Below are positions 23,272-63,692 of a stretch of 64,000 bases of DNA, piece by piece (position 1 is the first letter of the stretch; each line of letters begins with the position of its first letter). The notes under the pieces were generated by a model that was not told where the DNA came from, did not search any database, and saw only the letters and a list, made by a program, of their open reading frames with translations. The translations under genes and the position numbers were made by a program. The DNA is from Membranipora membranacea (lineage: Eukaryota > Bryozoa > Gymnolaemata > Cheilostomatida > Membraniporidae). Where the stretch lies: positions 18,162,948-18,226,947 of the forward strand of contig OU612071.1 of the NCBI GenBank assembly GCA_914767715.1, given 5' to 3'.

Positions 23272-25512
23272 AGCTGCTGATTTAGACCTGGTGGTTCGTA
23301 CCTCTCTTTATATTCCCTGTAGCAGCTTTTCTACTAGACTGTTCAAGGGGAAATGCTGTGAATCTAATAATTTCCAATGATCCCAAACAAGCCTAGAACT
23401 ATCATTAAACAACCATTTGTAATCATTGTTTTTATTGCCAACGAGGTCAATCAATGTTGAAGATAGAAATACAATTGTCAGTTCGAATATGACAAGTCGA
23501 GCATTCTTTATCAAGAGCTATGGCTGGTTTATATCTAGACAGAAAATGATCTTTTAATCGACACCGTATGCTATGAAAATATGCTATAAAATAGCTTTAA
23601 AATTTTTGCACAGGATAGTTATTTGGGGCGGTTAGCTGCAGACGAACCAAAAGACATGTTTCAGATTCTGACCCTTAGGTGTGCAGGTGTTTAAACTCAA
23701 TTGCACACTCGCCCTCCCCCTTTCCCCACACCAACAATTAATAATTCTCTTCCCAAATACATCTACAGACTTTATGCCAGGATGTTGAAATGAAGCAAAG
23801 CACCCAATGGGTCATGATCAGAGCATGACAATAATGTCAGAACTATTTGAAGTCTTTATTATTGATATGACAAAAACAAGCACTTCCAAATATCTGTATT
23901 GGAAGTCATCGTTCAATCTATGCTTTTCTGACGCTTCCAACCCTTATTTCTCAGTTCAGGACTCTTTCTGTGTCCCTCCTCAACCTTGGTTTAGTTTATT
24001 GACTACAGTTCATGGGGTTCTGCTAGCCTGATAGGGTAATAATGATTTATTTCAGAATCAGCATGATTTATTCATGGTACAGCGTAGGTTAGCTCTTCCA
24101 CTCGTTCTTTTCACTGTTATAAGATACATTTTCGATTCGCACAGCGGTGTATTGGCTGTCGATGCTCGGTCATTCAGTTATATGGGTTGATAAAGCAGTT
24201 GTTTTTAAACAATAAACAAAGTGATCAACTAGATTCAGATGCGTATGTCAAAATCACATAAAAGCGCACAAATGAAAAGTCTGAGGGGGAGGGAAACCTT
24301 GCAACAAGATTGCTCTCGGAGAGAGGAACCAGAGTACTAAAGATTTAAAGTATTTCAGAAGTTAAGTTTACATTTTACAATGCCTGTTAATGAATACACA
24401 TTATGCAGTATGTAGCCTTTATTGTTTCCACTGCTTATACCTTGTATTGCAAGCAGTGTTGTATGATTGGTCAAAAGTATTTAGAGGTTGGCTCACCTGC
24501 TGCATTGCCAAGCATAATATTTTAGTGGTTAAGATTCACAAAGTCAAGCCTTTTCAAAGAGAAACCTTGAAACTTTTTGTGATATGAATCTACATGATAT
24601 ATCTCATTTTAAAATCCCACATAACTTATTGCCCATGCATCCTAGCCAAAAATAACAACAATATGGCGTATAACTTGAAGGTTGGGCATTTCAAAAAAGT
24701 TAGAAATTAGTCTTTAGGATAAATACAGAATGAATTATGACCTATCATAGGTAGGTATGTCTGCATCAAAAATTTACATCGTTATTTATATAATTATTGA
24801 ACTTGGCAGGTGGCCAGATTGATAAATTTCCCCCACTGCATCAAACACCACAGGCACTATAACGATCATTGAAGCGACCCCATTGTATATCCTTCGCATA
24901 TTGATCAATGATGATCAGTTGATGCAACTATGATGCGAATCAATGTAAGGGTCTGTCATGTATCCAACATGGTGTCAAAAAGTTAAATCGAAATGAGCCT
25001 TTCTTTTTGTTCTTCTCCTGGCTTGTAAACTGGTGACTATAAATATGCAGTAAGGAAATACCTGATAAAATAAATCAATTATCGAGTCAATCACATTGAT
25101 TCCTGATTTGAGACTGAATCCAGATAACAATCAAATCCGTGTAGCAAAAAACAGCCTGATCAGTAAATATGTTGTCTAGATTTTTCTGATTCATTATTGT
25201 CGCAATTTTTAGCAGCAAATAAATCAATCAATCGAGCAGATCATAAGGTGTAAGCATCTCAAACTTGCAATGGCTGACAAACACACTGACCATATTGGAA
25301 TTGTGAATATCGATCATGTTATGAAAATAAACTACATTAGTTGTCGGTCAATTTGGTATGGATATTAAATTGCCAATGTATTACAATACAGCATTCAGTA
25401 ATATTTTATTATGTAATGTATGTCGCAATGGAAATTGATCATTAATTTTCATGAGACTATGATATTACTAAGTAAATTACAATGAAAGCCATCCATTTGC
25501 TATATTACGCAT
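23272..25512. other. Non-coding stretch
   Basis: Nothing supported as a gene. AT-rich, with short chance open frames on both strands. Confidence 0.45.
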
Positions 25513-25655
<143 letters not shown>

Positions 25656-41121: not shown

Positions 41122-43301
41122 TTACTGCTGCTGCATTACGTTGAGAACACTGGCTATCACGCTGCCTAAGAACGCAGTACCGATCATAGCTGCGTTTAGT
41201 AGGGGCTGTTGTTGTGGTTGTTGTTGTTGGTTGGCCTCTTGTTGACCAGCGTTCTCCGCTGCCTGTAGGTCTGTGGCCTCTCTATTTCCTATTGGTCGGA
41301 GCTGCTGCATACCGCACTCCTGTAAACATAGAATTTCAATGAATAGCAGCAATGCAAAATGGATAGAATAGAAGGAACGGAGATTAAAGCATAACCTCAA
41401 CAGTCACAAATCTGAACGATTATGTCTAGTTGCTAGGGAATTTCATAGCAAGCTTTACTACATTTAAAAATATGAAAATGTGAGATTCTCAAGACCAAGG
41501 AGATGTTATGTCCTCTCAAACAAAGACAAGACAACTTTGGAATCTTATTTTAAATAATTTGCACCTACCCATCCGCCTTGAGCTTCGATCCAGCGATCGT
41601 ATCCATGCCTGGTGAAGTAGAAGGCCACCCAGTTGATGATATCAGTAATCTTGTCTGAGTGTCCACTAGCTATAGCCGACAGGCACATCTGATTCACAAA
41701 CATCGTAACCTGCAACAAACAGGACAAAAACGATCACAATGCTATCAACATCAGCACATAAGTACTACATTGTGCGAAAAATATCTGAACAAACTAAACA
41801 GCGCAGCGAATTTAAAATGGCATGTCACAAACTGTCCCATAATGCAATCATCTGGGATTCCTAGTGCGTTAGGGTCAGAGACAACAAACAAGTAATAGCT
41901 TTTGACATGATCCCAGACATTTCAGACCAATGTTGATTTCTTGGTATACCATTAATATGTTTAAATCAATATTCATAAATAAACTAATGCCACAAAAAGT
42001 TTCAAGAGAAAACAAAAATAATAAATACTTACAGCGATGAATCTACCAAAGCTGAGTACCCCATCACAGAACATACTGTCAAGCACATGGTGTATACCAC
42101 AGCCTATAGTACTACTGTTACTGTCTCTGTTTACTACTGTCAGACCAACATCCTTCATAGTCGAGCTATTATTAGCCTGTGACATCACCCAATCATCTAT
42201 AAATAGAACAGAGTTATCGGTATCCCACAATGCAACGCTCTAGTATTATCAACTGACAAGCCACCACTGGGTCTGGATCATCATTGCCGAAGGGTAGCTA
42301 ACCCGATTCCGATTGTTTTGCATCAACTAATATGACATTGTTTCTTCTCCCGAGGGGAGATAAACCCTAATTTTGGAATGTGTAAAAAAAGCCCAACAAT
42401 GCAGTACGAAAATTCCTGGAATTTATTAGCACAATTCTCTATAAAATCTCAAGGTCACTGTACTAAAGCTGAAAGTAATGTCATAATCATACAAGCCATT
42501 AAACTTTCTAACCAGAAAGTGTGATCGACCCAACATCAAGTTTGGTGTATTACGTATTTTACGCTCATCGAAGTTGAATCAATTTCTTTCTCGCAAGGAG
42601 GGGCTTAGACTAATCATATTATCATAGCTAACGTACCATATTCTCTTATCTTTGTTACGATTGATTGAGTCTGTGGTGGTACTCCACTAAGCATGCATTC
42701 GAGCGCCGGCACTCTGCAGTTCTCCTCACTCAACCTAGAACAAATGGGATTAAATTCAGTTTTATTGTGATATTCACAGACAAAATTCGTTTCTCTAATA
42801 GCATAATCCTGTTATTCCACTGGCCCAAATGAGACTACCGAAAAAACTCAAGCGAAATTTAGTAAAGCGTTCACCGGAAAAAAGCATCAGTTTGGACCAA
42901 GTATACAAGGCAATTCAAGCAACAGTTTTTTAGATATTTTGTCAAACATCACGTGGACATGTTGTTCCACTTGCCTAAATGAGACCATCAGAAAAACTCT
43001 CGTGCGATTCAGTAATCACTGAAAAAAAGGGCAGCTTGGCACATATCTACAAGCAGTTAACAGTTCAAAATATAGATGATTTGTCACATATTTTTGTCCC
43101 ACTTTGGCAGGAAAACTAACTCTCACTTACCTTAAACTTAAACAGAGTTCAATTTTTTTAACTCATATTTTTCAAAACAGAGTTTAAACTTTAAACAGAG
43201 TTAAAATTTAAATTTAAGCGTCTCACCCACCTTGAGTGTACATATGCTATGAGGACATGAGTGGTGGTGATCTTGTTGCTGCAGTAGTTTCTGGCTGCCA
43301 T
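41122..43301 (-). CDS. Bcl-2 family protein A (223 aa)
   Basis: Five exons: 43231-43301, 42637-42734, 42033-42196, 41569-41709 and 41122-41319, with phases 2, 1, 0, 0. BH4-like helix at residues 14-25 (VLIAYVHSRL). BH3-like helix at about 50-62 (KIREYDDW, lacking the usual Gly). BH1 at 98-111 (MFCDGVLSFGRFIA, with SFGR for NWGR). BH2 at 149-158 (DRWIEAQGGW), followed at once by an intron. A Gln-rich linker (QQQQPQQQ) leads to a C-terminal membrane anchor at about 201-219. Multi-BH-domain Bcl-2 proteins control mitochondrial outer membrane permeability; whether A is pro-survival or pro-death cannot be read from sequence. It is nearest to B, with which it shares the anchor (FLGSVIASVLNV). Confidence 0.92.
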
Positions 43302-45033: not shown

Positions 45034-45035
45034 TC
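44968..45035. repeat. 11 bp tandem repeat (ATCACTTTGAC)
   Basis: About six units, one with a GTC variant, directly beside the stop codon of Bcl-2 gene B. Confidence 0.9.
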
Positions 45036-48000
45036 ATAGTCGGTTCAGTACATTGAGAACACTAGCCACGACGCTGCCTAAAAAGACAGTACCGACCACT
45101 GCAGCATCTATCACTGGGTCTAACTGGTGCTGATGCCTGTGATGCTGGTGGTGTCTGTGCGGACTCCGCCGCTCCAACACTCTGCCTCCGCTCCCTCTGC
45201 TCCCAGCTGAAGATCGGCGACGCTCTTCTGCAGATTGTCTTCGTTCTTCTGCAGATTGTCGTCGTTCTTGTGCAGATAGCCGTCGTTCGGCGGCGGCAAC
45301 AGAAGCACCGGACCGCCATCGCTCCTCTGGGGTTGCAGAAGCAGCGGACCATCGTCGTTCCTCTTCAGACACGACCTGTTGTACCTCCCTGGCTGGCATC
45401 ATACGCAAGTTCTGTATCCCAACTTCCTGTGTAACGATACAGAATTACGCGTTCTAAAATGATTGTGACCGAAACAGGTTTTCAGTATCAAACTAGTGTT
45501 CTCAGTCTAATTCAGAAAACTGCTCTAGCCTGTCGACCAGTTTCAACTAATTTTCACTCAATGCTGCGATTGGAAGTTACTAAAACGGATTAACCTTGTA
45601 TATACTATCATAAAAATAGTACCTTTTTAGTACCGTCCCATCTCATCTTGGAGTAAAAAATTAGTTGAAACTGGGCCGTATGTTGGTAATCAACCTTAAT
45701 TATTAGACCGATAACTCCAGAGTTTCATTAGAAATAGGCCATGTTTTGACTTATATCTGATTGCCTGGGTGAGGGGAGAGAGCCAATGTCCAGTCGATGG
45801 TACCTATTCAGATTTATCAAAAGTGAAAGTCAAATTGGGTGGTCTTTCCATTAGAATGAGTGATACTTCACTAAAGCAAGTTATCACTAACCATCGCTCA
45901 AAATTATCACTCACTTGGTCTTCCATTTAGACAATTTCGCTCCCGAATCGCCCACTCAGAATGTTTATAATTACATCATTGACTGAGCGATTTGAAAGCG
46001 AGAGCCCTATGGGTTATTGCCCACTCACTGAGTGAGCGATCTTATTGCGATTTTGGCTGTTTCTAATTGAAAGACCCCCCTGAATCGCATTCACTTTAAC
46101 TATGTCCCAATAGGTACTCTCACTGACCAGACAAAGCCTGATTCCGTCATAATCACTTTAAAGAGGTTACACTGCGAGTTTTAACGAGTTAATACACTCA
46201 CCCATCCTCCCCTAGCCGCGATCCAGCCGTCATATCCGTGACTCATGAAGTAGCAGACAGCCCACTGTATAATCTTAGTTATTCTGTGACACTGACCGTG
46301 TAACATGGCGGCCTGGGACATCTGATTTACTAGCATCACCACCTGTGTAAGGGAGAGAGGCTAGAGTCAATATTGTGATATACCCTACAGCAGTTAATAT
46401 TAGCTAGTGTGACTTAATGTTAGCTAGCATCACTGATAATGGAGATTCACTTAACTAAGATATGATCATAAGCTGACAGACATAAGGAAATGTTCATTAC
46501 AGGAAAAGCAATGACGAAACTGAGCTAAAGGGTTTTAATGACAATCCCATAATGCAATTTAGTCCTGTTTCTTCTTATATGAAGTGGAATTTGAATCTAT
46601 GATGGATCTTTAGATCGCACAAGCCATCAATCAGATGTGATGATATTACAAGAAACATATGGGAGCGAAGGTCAAAGTCAAACCATCGTTTTGTCCGTTT
46701 CAGCCTGAACATAATCTCTGTGGCCCGCTGGCATCGCATCATAGTCATGTTATGATTTAAATAGAAACCTCTCTGATTTTACAGTTGACTTGATTTTCTT
46801 ATAATTGAATTCTGGGATACCGTCATTAAGAGATGATGGACAAACAGTTATTATTTCATAAACTCAATTAAACTTGATTTGGGTTATCTTATCATGTTAT
46901 CTATGTGGGAAAAATTCATACGATTGAGTGCATTTGTAAGTGAGTTTCATGGGACACCTTGTGCTCCATATTCCCTCCAACTAAGCTCAACCTATGTATG
47001 AACTCGCCACACCAAGTTTGAGATCTCTGATCACCAAAATTCAGTCTTATCTAGGGTTGGCAAGTCAAATTAACTTTGAGAAATAAAAAGCTATATTTAT
47101 GACCTTATGCTCTATCAATCAGAATTTCCACACGCAATCCACAATTAATTCACTTAGTAAGAGTACCATCACAAGGACTTTGGTGTGACGACCCGAGGTC
47201 AATGTTATTAATTAGGGGCGGGTACACATGAGGTACTCAGTCTAAATTGACCCTAATGATCAGAGATACACATGTTAATAGTGTAGCCTCGATGTCAGTG
47301 TGCAGGCAATCAGCTTGTTAACTCACAGCTACTAATCTGCCGAAGCTCATCTGGCCGTCCATGAAGAGATTATTGAGTACTTTAGTAAGCCCAGAGGATA
47401 TGGTAGAGTCGGTACTTTCCCTGGACACGAGTAACTGAGCAGACTGTCTCATCTGCCGGGCGTTACTTTGGTCAGCCATTATCCAGTCATCTAAAAATGT
47501 TTAATACAAGTGGACATATCAATGGACTTATCGTTTTACATGCAATAGTTGACACAATAGATTATAAGATAAATGTCTATTGAGGAAGAGGCAGTGTGAA
47601 TAGAAATATCACAAAGGCCTACTTTTTGTTGATAATAGGTAACTGTTGGGTATTTTCAAACCCGTCCTTCAAAAATTTACCTTCTCAAAGCAGTTTGAGC
47701 TACCTTCGATGGAATGGTGATATTAGCACCTGCTTTTAACCACCCATATGCTCCCCTCCCTTGGCCCTGGCAATCATACACTCCCAAATAAAACAGCATC
47801 GCGCGTATCAAAATCATGATCGTCAAAGTTACATCCAGACGGCAGTGTGCACACACCGAAACTTGGGTGCGCACAAGGTCTACAAATTTTGCAAGAATTA
47901 TACCTAAAATAACTGTGCACGTTCAGGGAGGCGTATCAAAGAGAATTCGGCTCGGTGTCACTCACCATACTGCCTGATCCTGTCGATGATTGGTTGAACC

Positions 48001-50647: not shown

Positions 50648-53149
50648 TTATTGACAATGTCTAAAGAGAATGTTATAGCTAACGGCCATCATCCCTCCAA
50701 TCATTCCTAAAGCCAGGAACAATGAGGGCATCATCACATCATTATACTGAGCTAGAGCGGGCAGTATCCTACCGAACCCTCCACCAGTCGCTCCTCGGAA
50801 GTGTGCCGGCATCGCCATCTAAAACAAAGTAGTGGAATTTTGATTAAATTTGATTGTGAGACAAATTGGACGGTTTCAACACAAGCTATTACCAGATTAA
50901 TACGCTGTACCATACGAAAGTACAGCCTGGTTTTGTCAAGGTCTACACAACCATATTGTAAACAAAAGTGACACTGTTTGACCAAATTACTTCACTAAAT
51001 CGCACAAGAGGTTTTCGCTAGCCTCATCGAGGACAATGGATCAATATACTTTGCCCACAGGATTATCCCACCCTAAAATGGTATCGAGGCTAGATCTAGG
51101 CAACCCTTCCCCTATAGACCACCAAGGCTTGTTACTGCTGGATACTGCTAGCTCCCCGATGAAAGATGTGACTATTGCCATGTGTCAAATTAGGGCTGGA
51201 CCACGTCCAAAAGAGATTTTTTATAGGCATGCAAGAATTATGCATCTGATAGATGTGCCAAGACAGTAAATAGATATGCGTCATGGTATGAGTATGGTCT
51301 CCGACATGGTAACCAAGGTCAAACTTTCCTAGAGTACTCACCCATCCACCAGAGGCAGCGATCCACTCGTCAAAGAAGTGAGCTCTAAAGTAACAGGTAC
51401 ACCAGTCTATGAGCTCTACTATTCTGCTTGAGTTACACCGTCTCATAGCTATGATCGCCAACTCACTCGTGAATATTATTATCTGTGAAATATAGCAACA
51501 CGATGCCATTATGTTTGATATTGTTATCTGGGTGACTTAAAGCGTGAGTGGAAACTTTAAAAATTAGATTTCACGCCTGAGGTCTTGATAACAGATTTGC
51601 ATGGGTGAGTCTATGAATTTGTTTATGATCCTCAATTAGCAGAATTTGTGTTGTTGTTATATGGGAGCATACACCAACCCGCCATGTCGCAAATATGTTA
51701 AAATGTTGGAACTGTTGTACAAAGGACAGCAAACAGTAAGGCTGACAATAAGAGCCTATCGACCAGTCTCCAGATTTAAATTAATTACTTACACTGAACC
51801 TAGCTAATGTTGCGGCTCTGATTGGGTGGTGAGAGGAAGCGACTCAATGCTACTTTCCTGAAAGTACCTATTGGTACATAATGAATTTCCCACCCAACAG
51901 CCAATCAGATCAGAGACAACACATTGGTTACACTGTACCTCTAACTTACCACGGACAGCCTGCCCCAGTTAACTCTGTGATCTACGAACATCTCATTGAG
52001 TACTCCGTTGTACTGATCTCTGGCCACTTGAGAGTTACACCCAGATATACCCTCAGCTGCATTGTGTATGTGATTTCTGTGTTCTGTGTCCAACATCATG
52101 TGGCATTCTGTGCGGAGAACAAACATAAATGCTAAATACAAACAGGCTATGTCATTAAGTATCAATAAATGTGGGACGGAACAATTTCTCGCTTGTCAAA
52201 GCACAAGTGAAGAAAGGACGGGTTTGTGGTTTGGTGATAATCGTCAGTGTTGCAACGCTTGGTATTCAATGACCGCGTACACCTGATGTTACACAATCTG
52301 AATTCTTCTGATGTAATTTAAAGATATTTACATATTGGGTGTACATTTTTGCAGCTAGTTACCCTTTTTAGTTAGGAGTGAAGTATTTGTGGGCGAAAAA
52401 ATTGACCATTTCACGTCAGCTTGAAATAGCAAAGTTTCAGGCTAGCTAACTTTTCATCAACCTCTACCCTTCATATAGACTCCCTTCACAGTCAGCCCAA
52501 ATTTTGTTCTAGCTAGCATTAAGCCACCCTAAGACTAGCAAGAATAAACTCTAGCTATTATTTACTCCACTAGGATAGTTAAAAAGTAAACATAGCTCAC
52601 CAAACTCCCTGATCTGTCTGACAGCCGGTAGGTCACTCTCATCAAACCTGCTCTGTAGAGATCTGAGAATCTGGGCTCTGTTCCCGTCATAACCAGCCTC
52701 TCTCAGCCTGTCAGAGTGAAACAAAAGTCAATACAAGACCAGCAGATGATATCTTATCTGACTCACCATGGCTTTGAAGCAATCCACACAGTGACAGGGT
52801 ATTATACTTAGATCATAACTTCAATTGAGGTACAAGTTGTACGGTTTGTAGAATGAATACAGTCACTTCCTTTAATCAGGTCAGATGGTCTACTTAATCC
52901 CCCCTCTAAGTTCCCCTATTGCTCAACCAGAGACGCTGACATTGGTGTCCGTGAAATGTGAATACAATCTTTGTAAAATTATTCTCTGCAGATCATCAAC
53001 TAGGCTGTGCTGAATGATAAATGTGGAGTCAGTCATCAAGGTCCCAAAATCCTCAATTTAATCTCATCTTACCGCCCTTTGACATAAGTGATGACCACAT
53101 CCTTGGTGTTAGGTCTGGCTGGAGTGCCTGTTCCTGATCCCGATGCCAT
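50648..53149 (-). CDS. Bcl-2 family protein C (217 aa), most canonical member
   Basis: Exons 53073-53149, 52601-52707, 51950-52107, 51342-51482 and 50648-50818. BH4 (residues about 16-34) is a good match: KDVVITYVKGRLREAGYDG. BH3 position at exon 2/3 reads VRQIREFE, so it is degenerate. BH1 has the textbook NWGR (MFVDHRVNWGRLSV, about 101-114). BH2 is FDEWIAASGGW (151-161), with the intron straight after Trp. The C-terminal anchor at about 189-212 is Met/Leu/Gly-rich and is followed by the short basic end FRHCQ. It is the size and layout of vertebrate pro-survival Bcl-2 proteins. It is the best reference for the cluster. No poly-Gln linker is present. Confidence 0.95.
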
Positions 53150-53596: not shown

Positions 53597-55748
53597 TTAG
53601 TTTAAGTTGGTAGATATCTTAATACTCCAGCAAGTTTTATCAGCCTTTTTTTCCTCAGCTGTAGCTGACGGGGCTGCAGCAGCCTCTTTCTGTTCTTGTG
53701 CAGCCGGAGGCGCTGCCTTTGCGCTTGACGCCGTGGCAGCAACAGCGGCGATGTTTGGTTGGGAAGCTGATATTCCCTGCAGAGTTTTGGATGTTCCCGG
53801 CTGCACATCTATTGCTTCTGATTTAGAGTTAGCGGGCTCCTTGCGCATTACAAAGCCGCTAGGTACTACTTTGGCTGTTGAGGGAGCATCAAAGACAACC
53901 TGAGTGCTGGCAGGCTGCTCAGGCTCCTGTTTAGCCTCATCTTTCTCAGGTTGAGTTTCAGCTACTGGAGCACTCTCTTCCTGTGGCTGTTGGGTTTGCT
54001 GGGGTTGCTGGGGTTGCTGGGGTTGCTGAGACAGTTGTTCACCTATGACTGCCTTTGCTATACTGCCGAGTACACTACCGAGGTTTGCCATGTCTAGTTT
54101 GATCCCCTTGCCCTCACAAGGAGGTTGTTTATCTTTACACTCTGTTTGACACATCATTTCGCACTCAAGGTTGGTCTGCAAAAGAAAGCATTAGTGAGAA
54201 ACTTAGGATGAAGCGAGACATTTTCAAGTCCTAATCTATGTAGTCACTGTAAGAACCGAAAAAGTTTCTTCACATTTAAAAGGATATGCCAAATATCTCA
54301 GTGGAGTGGCAAAATGGCGTTGCCACATATACAACTCTTCTTCCCGAAAGCCCAGACTCATCCAATCACCAGTAGTACTTAGCAATTTGACCTAGCTGCA
54401 GGCAAATCAAAAAGCGAGGACAAGGCCAATTAAGTTTGTTTTGTTTGTGAACAGTTTCCAGCTCTTCAGCAGTAGTTAAAAGTACTCACCCAGCCACCCT
54501 TAGCTTGAACCCAGGCATCGATGTTCTTCTCTCTGAAGTAACAGACACACCACTCTATGAGATCCTGTATTCTCCTTATATTCTCGTGCTCCATGGCATT
54601 CTCAGCTAGTACTCCTGTCACCACCAACAGCTAAACGAAAGAGAGGAAGGAATTTTATAGCTATTCAAATTGTTGAATTGATGTGGCATGGGCAAACAAC
54701 AACGAATCAACAGAATTTCTGTGACAACTATTAGTTTCGGTTGATCATAATTATGAACACTTAGTATATTCTGACTGGCTTTTGAGTGGAATACCAGTTA
54801 TAAATGTCTTGAGCTTAGTTTTACCCTGCCGTTCTTCTATCAATATTTGCAGAAATGAATTCTCACAGTACACCAGATAAATCGCACTCACCATCACGAC
54901 TCGTGACCAGTCGACTTTGTTAAAGATTCGGTTGATTGTTTTGGTGAATCTAAGGAATCCCTCTGATGGTACATTGAGTACTCGGTCATCATTAGTCCAC
55001 ACTGCCTCCTCTATATCCGCTCGGTCACAGTAATCTAAGTTCTTCTCTTCTTTAATATATCAAGGTTAGACAACTTTTTAGACCTATCAGTGTTATATAA
55101 TGTAAGTTATCAATACCTGCACATTTCATCATGCAGTTCAATTAGATTGCAGCTCGAGAAAGAGATGACATTTCATTGTAAAATCTGATAGTTTGAATTG
55201 GAACTAGGGTAACAAGTGAGCGGTGATCTCGCAAATTCTCTCTGAAAACTAACCATATTCCAAGATGGTGTTGATGAAACAATGCTCATCGTAGTTGACA
55301 GGCGTCTCCAAGCGAGCCAGCGCTTGTCTCAACAGGGTGTTATATTTGTTACGCTGCAATCTGCAAGAAAAATTATCACAATGTATGAGAGTAAGCTTTA
55401 AATTAAAATGAAAGCAGATCGATAACAACTACTAACTGTAAGTTTGCCATGGGAAAAATTCAGCGAAAGATTTGGTGAGATAACTCGACCATCATTTAGA
55501 ACGGTAGGGATTAAGATGGGGCTATTACATCAATATTTATTAGTACGAAAGAATAGATGATAATGGACAACACAAAAGATGAATGTTTGTGTATGCAAAT
55601 GGTAACTGAACTGAAAACTGAAAAAGTGGAACACTAAGTACTAGCAGTTGAACAATCTAACTTACCTCCTTCTGACGAGGGCTACGATGATATCTCTGAG
55701 TCCTGGCTCTGGTTTGTTCTGATTGCAATCGCCTCTGACACCAGCCAT
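53597..55748 (-). CDS. Bcl-2 family protein D with low-complexity tail (355 aa)
   Basis: Exons 55666-55748, 55254-55360, 54892-55049, 54490-54630 and 53597-54175. BH4-like RDIIVALVRRRLQ; BH3 region NTILEYEE; BH1 RIFNKVDWSRVVM (DWSR for NWGR); BH2 DAWVQAKGGW. The last exon codes 192 residues in place of the anchor: a Cys cluster (CEMMCQTECKD...PPC), an amphipathic LGSVLGSIAKAVIG, a (QQP)n run, Glu/Pro-rich and Ala-rich stretches, and the end TCWSIKISTNLN. No C-terminal hydrophobic anchor is seen, so membrane location is doubtful. The exon 3 acceptor is a tandem NAGNAG (55047-55052), which would allow 3 nt alternative splicing. Confidence 0.9.
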
Positions 55749-56754: not shown

Positions 56755-59700
56755 TTAGCGAGACCCCAATTTTATCTTAATTCTCCATATTGAAGAGTTT
56801 TCAAGCTCCTCCGCAAAATCTTTGAACACGTTCACTTCTTTCTTGAGATTTTTGATTGGATCCTGACTTAGTTCTTCCTCTGGTATCTGCGTGCCTTCCT
56901 CAGTGAATCTGTCAGCCTCAGACTTAGCCATCCTAAGCTGGGAAGACTTGACTATCGTTGGTTTGACTTGCGACGAACTGTTATCTGTCGTGGATTTAGT
57001 ACTGCTTTGGCTCACGGTTTGCTTGAGTTTTGATGGAGATGGCGCTCCGAGCTGACTCACATCCGATTTCTTCAATTCCACACCCTACAACACATGCCAA
57101 GTTCAGCCGTCATTTTATGTTTACATAAGCTGCAAACATGCTCATGATGCTCAAAATTATGTGACACACTAATAACTTGTGATTGCTATTAGATGGCAGC
57201 ATACAAACAGTTTTAGAGGGGGGGCATTGGGGGCCGTCACATGGGGACAAGAGTCTGGGGGACTCAGACTAACAAACAGTGGTTCTCTTAATCATTCTAT
57301 CAATCATTTATCCCTTCAATGATGAATAATACTTACATGTACTGGACAACATGTGTCAGGTTCTACTCTCGGGAGACCTTTGGAGGACTGAGTAAGTCTT
57401 GTTGATGGTCCATTACCATCTGCCTCTGACGGTGTGGTCACTACATACTTTACTCCAGACCTTGCTGCTGTCCTACTGATATCTTTTTGTAGGTTGAGAA
57501 GGGAGCCACTGATAGTCTCATCTATTGCAGGCTCGGATAGGATATCTTTGATCAGCAGATCGATTTCTGCCGCTGGATCCTGCTCTGGCTTACTTGAAGT
57601 CGCTATTGGTTGACCAAAATCTTGTTGCTGGCTTTGCGACAGGTTAACCCCCTGCTCCTGACTGGCTGCTCCGATCCTTTGCTGTTGATTGGAAGATGTA
57701 TTCACAACCTGCTGCTGACTTGACATGGCAAAGTCCTGTTTTTGACTGACTTGACTGAAAGCCTGTTGTTGACTTTTAGGCATACTGATTCCTTGCTGCT
57801 GTTGGCTGGCTGCCCCAAAGCTATGCTGCTGTTGGCTTGATGCACCAAATCCTTGGGACTGATTTTTAGTCATATTCACTCCCTGCTGACTAGGAATTGT
57901 TGAATCCTGCTGTTGACTGGGCTGACTGAAGCCTTGTTGTTGACTGGGCTGACTGAAGCCCTGTTGTTGACCAGGCTGACTGAAGGCCTGTTGTTGACTG
58001 GGCTGACTGTGGCCCTGTTGTTGACTGGGCTGACTGAAGCCCTGTTGTTGACTGGGCTGACTGGAGCCCTGTTGTTGACTGGGCTGACTCATGCCCTGTT
58101 GTTGACTGGGTTGACTGAAGCCCTGCTGTTGACTAAACTGACTGAGGCCCTGTTGTTGACTGAGCTGACTGAAGCCCTGTTGTTGACTTTTAGGCATATT
58201 GATTCCCTGCTGCTGTTGACTGGCTGCCCCGAAGCCTTGCTGCTGTTGGCTTGCTGCACCAAATCCTTGGGACTGATTTTTAGTCATGTTCACGCCTTGC
58301 TGGCTCGGAATCGTGAAACCCTGTTGTTGACCGGGCTGACTGAAGGCCTGCTGTTGACTGGGCTGACTGAGGCCCTGTTGTAGACTGGGCTGACTAAAGC
58401 CCTGTTGTTGGCTGGCCTGAATCAAGCCCTGTTGTTGACTTTTAGGCATATTGATTCCCTGCTGTTGCTGGCTGGCTGCCCCAAAGCCTTGCTGTTGGCT
58501 TCCCTGATTAAAACTTGGCTGCTGGCTGGGGCTGGCAAAATCTTGCTGTTTGCTTGCCTGATCAAAGCCTTTCTGCTGGCTAGGAATGGAGAAATCTTGC
58601 TGTTTGCTTGCTTGACCAAACCCTTGCTGTTGACTAGCTGCGTTGATGCCCTGTTGCTGACTTGCTATGTCAAAGCCCTGCTGTTGACTAACTGCGTTGA
58701 ATCCTTGTTGGCTTTGTTGCTGCCCTTGCCCACCGTTATGCTGTTGTTGACTGACAAATCCAACCGCCTGGAGATGACTGTTTCCTCCAATACATTGCTG
58801 CTGACTGACCATTCCAGTACCATGCTGTTTGCTGGCCACTCCTGATCCAACCATATGACTGGCACCTCCAACTAGCATACTCTGCTCTATTCTTGCCGGA
58901 TTTGGCATACTGTAGTCTAGCCTTGCAGGTTGTCGCATACTCATGTCTGTTCGTACTGGTCCAGGTATACTTGAGTCATACTTGGCTGGACGTACCATAA
59001 GTTGATCCTGCATTATTCTTGGTGCTGGCATGCTCACCTCTTGTCTAACTGGAGTTGGAGTAAAGGCACCTCCTCTGACTGGGCTAGAAAGTGCTACTTC
59101 TGGTGGCAACTGCGGTTGCTGGGGTTGAGGTGCAGATGGTGCCGTGCTGATGTTGCCCTTCACCCTTATGTCATTATTCTCTTCCCTTCCTTCGTTTGGA
59201 ATCTCCTGCTCAGTAGCTGAAAAGTCTATGTTAGGAGCGTCAGCATTTCCCTGTTCATTAACTGGGTATGATGAAGGCTCCATAAAGACGTCATTATCTT
59301 GCTGGCGTTGTGTTTGGGCAGGGTTTTGTGAAGAGTTCTTCAGTTGCACCAGTACTTCCTACAATAATTTAGGAGACAGGCAGGTCATCTTTGGGATGGA
59401 AACATTCCAGCAAATGTTATTGGCTTATGACTTGTGGCTATGACTTTGAATTACAAACAAACTTGTCTACAGTCATTGGTTTGGGCTGCACTGCTTTCTA
59501 ATCTTGTGAGGCTGTCAGGGACATCAGTTTCTTTGTGCTCTTACCATTGTTGTTCCAATAACTAATTGTAAACTCACCCAGCCGCCCTTAGCTTCTATCC
59601 AAGCATCAATAAAGTAATGTCTGAAGTAGTCTCGGCTCCATATCAGGTACTCCTTTACCTCCCATGTGTGACTGAAACTCAGAGCTCTCTCAGCAAGGGC

Positions 59701-61658
59701 TGCCACAATCACTGCAACCTACAACACATCAGAAGCATGTCAATCATCACAATGGGTAGCTACACTCAATACGACTGCAAAGTCAGAAGAAGCTTGTCAG
59801 TCAGGTCTTCACTGGTATTCCAATAAATTCCAATAAAGGGGGTAAAGGTTGATCCGTTTTTGTCCTCATGCTGCAAAAGTTTTATTCGAGAGGCGTAAAA
59901 TCTTTGTTTCTTGATTTTGCAATACCACCCCCATTATATCGGTTCTGCCTGACTAACCAATGACCTCCCAATGTAGGGAGTCCATTGATAGGATAGATAA
60001 AGAAACAGGAATCATCCTGGCAAATTTTCAGCTCTTTCTCTCAACCAGATTCATACTCACCATCACAATCTTACTCCAGTCAATAGTTTTTTCGCTGAAA
60101 ATCTTCTCATCCAGCAGCTGATTAAAGTTTTTCTGTCTGCAGGGCACTGTCTGGTTGAGGTCTCTCTTGAATTGTTCTACCACAGCTACATTCCTGTAGT
60201 CACAAAGTAGCTCTGTCTCTACAATATATAGAAATGATCCACTATCTGGTGACTTTTGACTTAGAAATAATGATTGAATTTCTTTGGCCGAAAATTTCCA
60301 ACCAAGGCCCCTGACGGCAGTGACAGCACCATCATTATTTAAATGAAAATTTAAAAACAAACTGTGTTTTAAGAATAAGCAAGCCCTTTGTGGTTGATAA
60401 AACACAGGGTGCTGGGTAATGCTTATGCTTTTTTTCTGAATATCACCCTACAGCACTATATTAGCCTGAAACCAATCACCTATCTTTGATGCCTGTAGCA
60501 CCATCTGACTCTATCACGAAGCCGAAAGGCCGTTAAGTGGCAGTCTATTGGGATAGGCTGACAAGACTGTAGGTTCATGATGAAGTTTAGAGTGAGAATA
60601 TGAGTCTGAGCCCACAGACATACTGACACAACATCAGCAGAGAGGGCCTACTTAGACATTAGTACTCACCAAACTCTCTCAGTACTTGTCCTAGGTTAGT
60701 ACCGGAATGGTCTACCTGTATGCACAGACCTGGCCCTGTGTACCAGCCACAGTTAGCCTGCGTCAACCTGCAAATAAAATTATAAAATATATAATAATAT
60801 ACCTTTTATTTTCTATTCAGTGCCCCATTCGAGACCAATGGGATGACACAACTCATCTATTTAGCACACCCTCGAACTAGGTAAGGGTGGGCAAGCTGGG
60901 TTTATTTATGTATGAAGAGCTCACTTCCATTAGCAGCATGGGTAGTGACCGGAATTCGAACCCGCAACTCTCAGATTGAGACGCCCGAACCCCAACCACT
61001 ACACCATCCTGCCACCCAATACATAGAACACACACACAAGCTACAAAAGTTACCAATGTCACTGTAATGAATTATATGAGTCCAACATGGTACAGCAAGT
61101 CAGGTAAGTATACGTAAGGCTGGTATGGTCTAGGCTGATGCTAGCCAGTCTTGACAAGCTTTGTTTTGTGGGGGGGGGGGGGGGGGAAGGGGGAACCCAC
61201 AACAAATGTTTATTGTAATAGGGTAAGTAAAATTATGTCTGCTGGATGATAGTGGTCTAAGCATCAATCGAAAATCAAATATTTTGCAGAGCTTTCCACG
61301 TTGTATTGATCAGGTGTACCTACCTTTGTTTGGTGTGTGACGCGATGACATCCCATGTCGTGGCCTGCTGTTGCATCATTTTCTTCTCGTGATTTAAGCT
61401 TTGTCTCCCCTGAAAACTATTCAATATGGTGGATTCTTCCCTCAATGTTGATGGCTTCCTGAATGATTTGTCCCTTGTCACTTGTGCCTTCCTCACGTGG
61501 TGGTCTGTGCAGATGTTGCCTGCCTTCAATCCCTGATAGATCCCTGCTCTATGATGCGTATTAATACACCACCTATACCACCTGTGATCTAAACCATCGC
61601 CTACTTTTTGTCTGTTAGTAGTGTACACGGGACTCCTGTGATGATTGAATGAGTTCAT
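56755..61658 (-). CDS. Giant Bcl-2 family protein E with Gln-rich repeat tail (~1027 aa)
   Basis: Six exons: 61324-61658, 60670-60767, 60061-60218, 59578-59718, 57337-59358 and 56755-57084; all phases fit. Residues 1-111 are a basic N-terminus (a later Met near residue 93 is also possible). The Bcl-2 core follows: BH3-position VLREFE, BH1 IFSEKTIDWSKIVM (185-197), BH2 DAWIEAKGGW (235-244) with the conserved intron. Exon 5 adds 674 residues: an acidic/Pro part with PxR-type repeats (PAR-x-D-x-SMP), then about 400 residues of S-Q-Q-Q-G-F-S-Q-P repeats. Exon 6 adds a Ser/Lys-rich end closing in SSIWRIKIKLGSR. No membrane anchor is seen. The tail is prion-like in composition. A fusion of unrelated genes is unlikely, because exon 5 keeps the same start point and phase as in the paralogues. 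Confidence 0.88.
57895..58445. repeat. 27 bp coding minisatellite in Bcl-2 gene E
   Basis: The unit codes for the nine residues G-F-S-Q-P-S-Q-Q-Q. On the + strand it reads CTGTTGTTGACTGGGCTGAC plus TGAAGCC. Many near-identical units lie at 57900-58200 and again at 58320-58440. Two longer blocks around AASQQQQGINMPKSQQQ (58190 and 58440) and 'NMTKNQSQGFGA' (57840 and 58260) are also repeated, so a larger unit has duplicated as well. Confidence 0.95.
60885..61020 (-). mobile_element. tRNA-derived SINE in intron 1 of Bcl-2 gene E
   Basis: On the minus strand it reads GGCAGGATGGTGTAGTGGTT (box A), then a TCTCAATCTGAGA anticodon-like stem-loop, and box B GGGTTCGAATTCC. A short body follows, ending in AT-rich sequence (CATACATAAATAAA). 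It is short and may be a truncated copy. Confidence 0.7.
61169..61186. repeat. Poly-G run
   Basis: A G-run of about 17-18 bases in intron 1 of gene E, a few hundred bases from the exon 1 donor. Confidence 0.9.
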
Positions 61659-62221: not shown

Positions 62222-63692
62222 TCAGGTAGCTGTGATATAGAACATGGCTAGTAGGCACGTTAGGGACGCCCCCACTCTTCTGATGACCTTCTGCTGTCTC
62301 TCAGTCTCTCTCTCCTCTTCTTCTCTTCTCTCAATCTCCTCCAAGTGCCTCACTAACTCCTTCTGTGAATAAAGATTAAAATGAATTATCTATTCATGTT
62401 ATTATTATTATTACTTAAATTTTATGTGTTTATAGTAGGCTTCACGGTTAACAGCAAGACCTATTTTCAAAGAGATGATTGGTGGGTTTGTGCGCTGAAG
62501 CTGAGTTATAGTCTAATTGATCGGCAATCAACTTAAAGTCAACCTTTACTCTGGCCGGCCGTTGGGCGCGGGGCAAAAGTCTGGTGGGCTCAGACTAACT
62601 CTGACTCAAAGAGAAAGGCTGCTCAAAGCCGCCTGAATAGATTCACCTGTAAAGGGATTCCCCATTTTGCATCATAATGAACACCTAATTGCAACAAAAC
62701 TAGGGCAAGATAACTTTTGAACTAACCATAACTCAATTGGAAAGCAACTGCTGAGAATTTCAATTTCAAATAGTAGCTATTGCTATGTAGTTCTAATTTT
62801 ACTGTATTTTAGCTGAATTTAATTGAGTTTTATCATATCAAAGAACCGTTGATAATTCTCTAAACACACGAGAAAAACTGCTGAGCTGATAATATCGGCA
62901 AGTTGCTAGTGTGATTGTTTTATCTGTCGATGAGAGGATGATTCTATCCCTGTGACTCACCCAGCCACCTTTATTAGAGATCCACTTATTATAATGTTTA
63001 AAGAAGACTTGTTGACCCAGAAAGACCATATCTGATATCAGGGTCTCATCAACCTCCATAGCCATGATGCATAGTCTCACTACAGCTATCACCGTCTGCC
63101 AAAATGATGAGCGAGCAAAAAATAACAGTGAAGTGATTTTCGAAAAGAGCATCTGGTTGGTATAATGAGCATACCCAACCAACAGCATGATATTCATATA
63201 TTTGAAGGTGAAAAGTTTTAGCAACCTAACTCAAAGGTTTGACAGAAGTAGTGCTATGATCTCTGACTTGTCTTTAAAGTCGGTTAAAATCCCAAGGTCT
63301 ATCTCCGACTGGAAACTGAGAAATGAGGTGTTTTAAGAGGGAAGCCACATTATTTGCATGCAAGCGGGAGCACACCTGAAGCACCGATAGAACCCAGTTT
63401 TTAGTCGTCTGCCGCAGATTTAAAACACAGCACCTCCGAACATTTGTGTGTTGGAGGGCACTCACCCTTATCATCTGAGCTACCTCCTACTTTTTCACCC
63501 ATCGAAGTAAGAATACTATAATTACCATAATGACAATCTCCCAGGTTTTCCCACTGTTGTAAATTCTAAACAAGGAGCGCATCATAGACCAGAATTGTTT
63601 GTTTCTGGCGTACTCCTCACTCCTCAGGTCTATTCTCTCTGTGCAGACCGTCAATCTATAGTGATGGTCCTTATTTGTCTCATACATTCGAC
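62222..63692 (-). CDS. Bcl-2 family protein F, 5' exons outside window
   Basis: Three exons seen: 63526-63692, 62961-63095 and 62222-62362. The first begins with two bases of a split codon (phase 1), as in all paralogues, so exons 1 and 2 must lie beyond the right edge or in the last 300 bases, where no donor was recognised. BH1 is weak (SLFRIYNSGKTWEIVIM). BH2 is NKWISNKGGW with the standard intron. Exon 4 is two codons shorter than in A-E. The last exon is a charged helix (EEIERREEEERETERQQK) leading to a short anchor, VGASLTCLLAMFYITAT, at the very C-terminus. Most diverged member in BH1. Confidence 0.85.

Follow-up and report, generated by a model that had tools for sequence, protein, structure and literature searches.

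The stretch of DNA analysed here (the window, 64,000 nucleotides, C7:18162948-18226947) comes from the genome of the bryozoan Membranipora membranacea (339 Mb, 18 contigs) and contains part of a cluster of Bcl-2 genes which extends on C7 from a near copy of gene A to gene H. The copy of gene A (L011, C7:18136304 region) lies ~68 kb away and is 94-99% identical per exon, and a recent duplication within the cluster is therefore suggested. A Pfam scan of the genome returned 12 Bcl-2 places, 8 of them over the cut-off, and because genes B, C, E and F fall outside these 12 places the genome contains at least 16 Bcl-2 genes. The passages of PMC8998228 cited here give 7 such genes for Amphimedon (6 in another passage) and at least 11 for Hydra. 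Elsewhere, loci L017 and L018 showed reverse-transcriptase-like and endonuclease-like open frames when judged by eye, and a (CAT)n run of ~49 copies with 94% matches was found at 25510-25655.

Gene E is modelled as six GT-AG exons on the minus strand (61379-56755) that are read in a single frame of 934 codons plus a stop (Table 1). The predicted protein consists of a 151-residue Bcl-2 core followed by a tail of 783 residues, of which 674 are encoded by exon 5 and 109 by exon 6. Exon 5 (2022 bp) is flanked by GT-AG introns, is in phase 0 on both sides and starts directly after the "GGW" of BH2, and in five paralogues the terminal exon also starts in phase 0 after GGW (A, B, C and D from full models and F by inspection). 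The original prediction of a 674-codon exon in the place and phase of the anchor exon of the paralogues was thus exact, including its coordinates, and the tail of ~780 residues that it described agrees with the 783 of our model. Splice scores were calibrated on the 16 introns of genes A-D, where donors ranged from 6.2 to 12.3 and acceptors from 3.7 to 14.3. The acceptor of exon 5 scored 6.2 and its donor 6.1, just under the lowest of the 16 training donors, while the acceptor of exon 6 scored 4.0, near the training minimum, making these sites usable but not strong. If the exon 5 donor is left unused the frame stops six codons further on.

Table 1 Features of gene E and terminal exons of its paralogues (positions in the window)
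Feature	Position	Strand	Basis
E exon 1, start codon, MMQQQATTWDVIASHTKQ	61324..61379	minus	spliced model; donor score 8.8 (A-D range 6.2-12.3)
E exon 2, Bcl-2 core to degenerate BH3 region LREF	60670..60767	minus	spliced model
E exon 3, core, BH1 region DWSKIVM	60061..60218	minus	spliced model
E exon 4, core, BH2 WIEAKGGW, phase-0 donor	59578..59718	minus	spliced model
E exon 5, 674-codon tail without membrane anchor	57337..59358	minus	open frame; AF2 mean pLDDT 37.6 (single sequence)
27 bp minisatellite, SQQQGFSQP units, 19.5 copies	57906..58440	minus	TRF
E exon 6, final 109 residues and stop, ends WRIKIKLGSR	56755..57084	minus	spliced model
AATAAA poly(A) signal, begins 113 nt past E stop codon	56637..56642	minus	motif scan
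D exon 5, 192-codon tail: anchor-like relic ANLGSVLGSIAKAVIG, QQP repeat, WSIKI end	53597..54175	minus	
B exon 5, 21 bp EERRQSA repeat and His-rich linker between BH2 and intact anchor	45034..45426	minus	
A exon 5, short Q-rich linker, then intact anchor	41122..41319	minus	
C exon 5, ordinary short anchor exon (comparison)	50648..50818	minus	

That E is a real Bcl-2 family gene is supported at the level of its sequence. The core scored 39.6 bits against Pfam PF00452 (34.7 bits for the whole protein, cut-off 31.4) with the match covering residues 66-151, and it matched solved structures of Bcl-w and Bax at E values of 0.0015-0.0016, while a profile built from the cores of A-E retrieved Bax at 1.4e-13 and Bcl-2 at 3e-13. 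BH2 is intact and 14 columns are invariant between E and A-D. The BH1 of E is degenerate, with S-K in its DWSK where C has G-R, the usual residues of this motif. The BH3 consensus includes a conserved Asp, which is missing from the corresponding region of E (LREFETELL) and is present at the aligned position in A and B. With both of these changes the groove is perhaps altered and groove binding may be lost. The missing Asp is nevertheless compatible with membership of the family because some pro-survival Bcl-2 proteins are described as lacking a BH3 in the part of PMC7022251 cited here. Two other domain matches were taken as chance: DUF746, sub-threshold, at E residues 906-934 (E 0.17), and NanE, which matched one of the cores A-E (E 0.00044).

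The tail is dominated by Gln (21.8%), Ser (14.4%) and Gly (8.4%), with 4.0% Asn and 0.5% Tyr. A rule for Q/N-rich prion-like regions is a minimum of 30 Q/N in 80 residues, and this density was reached in 254 of the 704 windows of the E tail, with a maximum of 36. The Q/N-dense part comprises residues 326-730 (143 Q, 67 S, 46 G, 25 F and 18 charged residues), that is 405 of the 783 tail residues. The earlier description of the tail as prion-like thus holds by the Q/N rule and draws solely on Q/N content; Asn and Tyr are scarce and the repeated aromatic residue is Phe. The original prediction also had exon 5 consisting mostly of repeats, which is fair in that the Q/N-dense part makes up 60% of the exon but does not extend to the whole of it, as ~175 codons precede this part and ~95 follow it. 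The 27 bp minisatellite that it had named was recovered by TRF with 73% matches and 7% indels, and its 535 bp account for 26% of the exon; shorter related repeat rows adjoin the array. In total 24 repeat units are exactly nine residues long, and the most constant positions include S at position 1 (22/24) and Q at positions 2 (20/24) and 3 (23/24); F occupies position 6 in 15/24. A higher-order duplication with a spacing of 138 residues lies within the array (TIPSQQGVN at 500 and 638, MTKNQSQGFGA at 509 and 647), and one stretch of 24 residues occurs twice in identical form in the tail.

Many, though not all, Bcl-2 members carry a C-terminal anchor on a separate exon according to the cited part of PMC7022251. 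We looked for an anchor in the E tail using the mean Kyte-Doolittle hydropathy over 19 residues and found none, the maximum being 0.74 compared with 1.82, 2.14, 1.93 and 1.18 in the tails of A, B, C and D respectively. E therefore keeps the position of the anchor exon with the anchor itself absent, just as the original prediction of a tail in place of the membrane anchor had it. A relic of the A or B anchor in E was also considered and rejected, as the best matches were equalled by 234 and 152 of 2000 shuffles. AF2 modelling of exon 5 placed 640 of the 674 residues below a pLDDT of 50, 34 at 50-70 and none higher, with two weak helices at exon residues 595-607 and 614-634; because the run was single-sequence this low confidence is weak evidence of disorder. 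The charge-hydropathy index (-0.061 for the tail and 0.142 for the core) agrees with disorder just mildly, and we regard the tail as probably disordered.

In a DNA search of the genome in which simple repeats and very common words were skipped, no second locus was found for the minisatellite, and exon 6 and the start of exon 5 matched their own locus alone. On this basis we rejected the idea that the tail was copied from a satellite or mobile element of the genome. A similar short sequence, perhaps an interspersed repeat, was seen by eye in intron 5 of E (57230-57275) and in an intron of F (62560-62600).

Several features of exon 5 indicate that its frame looks translated. It contains no in-frame stop, compared with 26 and 34 in the other two minus-strand frames, and at 680 codons (six of them beyond the donor) it is the longest stop-to-stop frame in 183,060 bases comprising the window and 12 loci, the next being 477 codons. 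All 171 Gln codons of the tail (81 CAA, 90 CAG) are one C-to-T change away from a stop, and no in-frame TAA or TAG occurs in the tail before the final stop, including in its non-repeat ends. Among the 24 units, variation was highest at third codon positions (0.468) compared with first (0.308) and second (0.288) positions. When each unit was compared with the consensus 53 of the 143 single-base differences were synonymous (37%), where 20% would be expected with a transition weight of 2 (16-25% for weights of 1-4). The corresponding probabilities, 3e-6 for the synonymous excess and 2e-5 for the lack of stops, assume independent units, an assumption that copies within a single array violate, and are therefore optimistic. 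With every distinct change counted a single time there were 40 nonsynonymous changes, 12 synonymous and 1 that would create a stop on the consensus background, a stop that no unit carries; the synonymous share (12/53) is near expectation and the evidence for constraint on the repeat protein sequence is therefore moderate. Synonymous and other differences stood at 20:15 in codons 1-4 of the unit and 33:75 in codons 5-9. An AATAAA lies within 93-351 nt of the stop in all six genes A-F (background on this strand 1.3 per kb), and none was found within 400 nt of two alternative ends.

The terminal exons of the neighbouring genes differ widely in composition, and in length encode 65 residues in A, 130 in B, 56 in C and 192 in D. 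The tail of gene D (53597-55748) is P/Q-rich and has no clean anchor. Its segment ANLGSVLGSIAKAVIG was compared with the anchors of the other genes, and shuffles scoring as well numbered 0 of 2000 for A, 1 for B, 136 for C, 1628 for F and 1614 for G; because it resembles the anchors of A and B and not those of C, F and G it looks like an anchor that has apparently decayed. Its hydropathy (1.18) is about as high as that of the C3 gene (1.12) and D may therefore still touch membranes. The C-termini of D (WSIKISTNLN) and E (WRIKIKLGSR) have WxIKI equally far from the end. Their end-anchored score was reached by 0.06-0.3% of shuffles over five lengths (10-25). Among interior stretches none of 172 and none of 763 reached it at length 20, and 1 of 758 did so at length 25. 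This suggests that the ends of D and E may derive from a shared older tail. D and E could not be retained as sister genes since a tree of BH2 exons had 0 of 10 inner branches starred; this tree contained 13 of the at least 16 genes, leaving out the copy of A, the second C4 gene and the C10 gene.

Of the at least 16 Bcl-2 genes, 13 have a candidate anchor frame, namely A and its copy, B, C, F, G, H, one gene each on C3 and C10 and two each on C9 and C4. This count is based on full models for A, B and C, on a scan prone to chance frames for the rest and on judgement by eye for C10. Three of the candidates (C3, H and the second C4 gene) are weak, and no clear anchor frame was found for the C6 gene in the 7 kb scanned. 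Given that D lacks a clean anchor and that A and B carry low-complexity linkers, E falls at one end of a range and, as far as these models go, represents the most extreme form of a terminal exon that varies locally. The overall reading of the original prediction stands in so far as E is a Bcl-2 gene with a Q/N-rich exon in the anchor position whose frame looks translated, but it missed the D tail, the linkers of A and B and the clustering of S/T-Q sites considered below.

How the long exon should be interpreted is less straightforward, and one objection is that it does not represent the main product of the gene, either because exon 4 joins an anchor exon elsewhere, a splice that the original prediction had itself raised, or because E is a decaying copy. 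Intron 5 does contain a phase-0 frame of 50-52 residues (~57268-57110) with a hydropathy maximum of 1.95, E has a long branch in the short-exon tree and the exon 5 donor is weak for this cluster. However, the acceptor of this frame scored 1.5 (-0.1 for a second possible one) against 4.0-8.0 for those of E itself and 3.7-14.3 for the 16 training sites, its stop is not followed by an AATAAA within 400 nt, and in a control covering 80 kb of the strand 37 frames combined an acceptor as good with a hydropathy of at least 1.4, or ~1.3 per 2.8 kb. The candidate anchor exon is thus at chance level and was rejected, and with all six E exons open we consider it very unlikely that the main product is something other than the long form. 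It is rather unlikely, to a lesser degree, that the tail is a functionless passenger, the loss of the anchor having been tolerated after duplication and the minisatellite then having lengthened freely in frame. Such near-neutral growth would fit the wide variation of terminal exons within the cluster (56-783 residues in A-E), the higher-order duplication inside the array, the lack of a second genomic locus for exon 6, the array and the exon 5 start, and the near-neutral share of synonymous changes when each is counted once. Against it, the synonymous excess over all differences and the lack of stops point to constraint on the frame and on the SQQQ core, and the non-repeat ends of the tail are also open.

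A different function for the tail is offered by SQ/TQ cluster domains, which are defined in the cited part of PMC10942620 by at least 3 S/T-Q within 50-100 residues and described as disordered and Q-rich. Here phosphorylation by ATM/ATR-type kinases would couple a soluble Bcl-2 protein to DNA damage or protein stability and the Q-richness would be a by-product. The E tail contains 60 S/T-Q sites (57 SQ, 3 TQ) compared with 30.5 in 2000 shuffles (sd 4.5, maximum 46), and 541 of its 684 windows of 100 residues have at least 3, with up to 20 per 100. Moreover, the S-Q pair at unit positions 1-2 is one of the most constant parts of the unit and codons 1-4 are relatively rich in synonymous differences. 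Since the repeat copies one SQ-bearing unit the excess may nonetheless reflect a single founder unit, many such domains are not kinase targets according to the same part of PMC10942620, and the tails of A, B and C have no S/T-Q sites while that of D has just 5. We judge this account unlikely as the explanation of the tail, and S/T-Q content may be taken as a functional lead equally as good as Q/N content.

The reading we prefer, to which we would give an even chance, is that E is a functional, tandemly duplicated Bcl-2 fold gene that lost its anchor, and whose terminal exon grew by minisatellite expansion into a Q/S-rich tail, yielding a soluble and self-associating regulator of its partners. 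Following tandem duplication and loss of the membrane anchor, expansion of the SQQQGFSQP units together with the higher-order duplication would have lengthened the terminal exon. The protein would be soluble in the cytosol or nucleus and its core may still bind Bcl-2 family partners or BH3-type helices through an altered groove. With F recurring between Q blocks in the nine-residue units and almost no charge, the multivalent tail may self-associate, and the resulting assembly could concentrate or sequester partners off the mitochondrion, replacing placement by an anchor. The repeat appears dispensable for the part shared by D and E because the C-terminus of D is similar although D lacks an expansion of this kind.

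Known systems resemble E in part. BCL-RAMBO (BCL2L13) combines a Bcl-2 homology region with a long low-complexity Glu/Ser-rich extension, 485 residues in human, and in this respect is like E, but as described in the cited part of PMC9800997 it keeps a C-terminal anchor after the extension and has a LIR motif, whereas in E the 783-residue Q/S-rich repeat tail lacks an anchor. The sponge proteins BHP1 and BHP2 and the Amphimedon set (PMC8998228, PMC7022251, passages cited) are also Bcl-2 fold genes, from early animals and present in several copies per genome; they are described as having BH motifs with a membrane region, and the word 'tail' is absent from the main text of PMC8998228. From sequence alone the E tail conforms to the SQ/TQ cluster rule, yet none of the domains in the cited part of PMC10942620 is on a Bcl-2 core, and that of E is made by a minisatellite. 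Condensates of Nur77 and Bcl-2 are reported to form by phase separation via the Bcl-2 loop in the passages cited of a review (PMC13338061), so that a partner and a loop drive them, whereas in E a built-in tail would do so. In the literature surveyed, with few subscription journals covered and most sources represented by excerpts, we found no description of a prion-like or Q-rich tail on a Bcl-2 member.

Yeast prion domains such as that of Sup35 are Q/N-rich, low in charge and contain short oligopeptide repeats. The E tail shares the Q-richness, low charge and repetition but is low in N and Y and is C-terminal on an apoptosis-type fold.

The cluster appears to capture turnover of the anchor exon, from a plain anchor (C) through a low-complexity linker plus anchor (A, B) and an apparently decayed anchor with a P/Q tail (D) to no anchor and a Q/S tail (E), and these graded neighbours make the steps testable by simple tail swaps. 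The assembly and S/T-Q interpretations of the tail could be compatible with each other. It is possible, if on the doubtful side, that the anchor was swapped for a prion-like/SQ-cluster tail tunable by repeat length, such that assembly state, perhaps together with SQ phosphorylation, and not membrane insertion controls E, and that tail length varies between individuals by copy number. E looks to be a member of the Bcl-2 family whose terminal exon is unusual, and if its tail assembles or is phosphorylated this would represent an off-membrane way to control a Bcl-2 fold.
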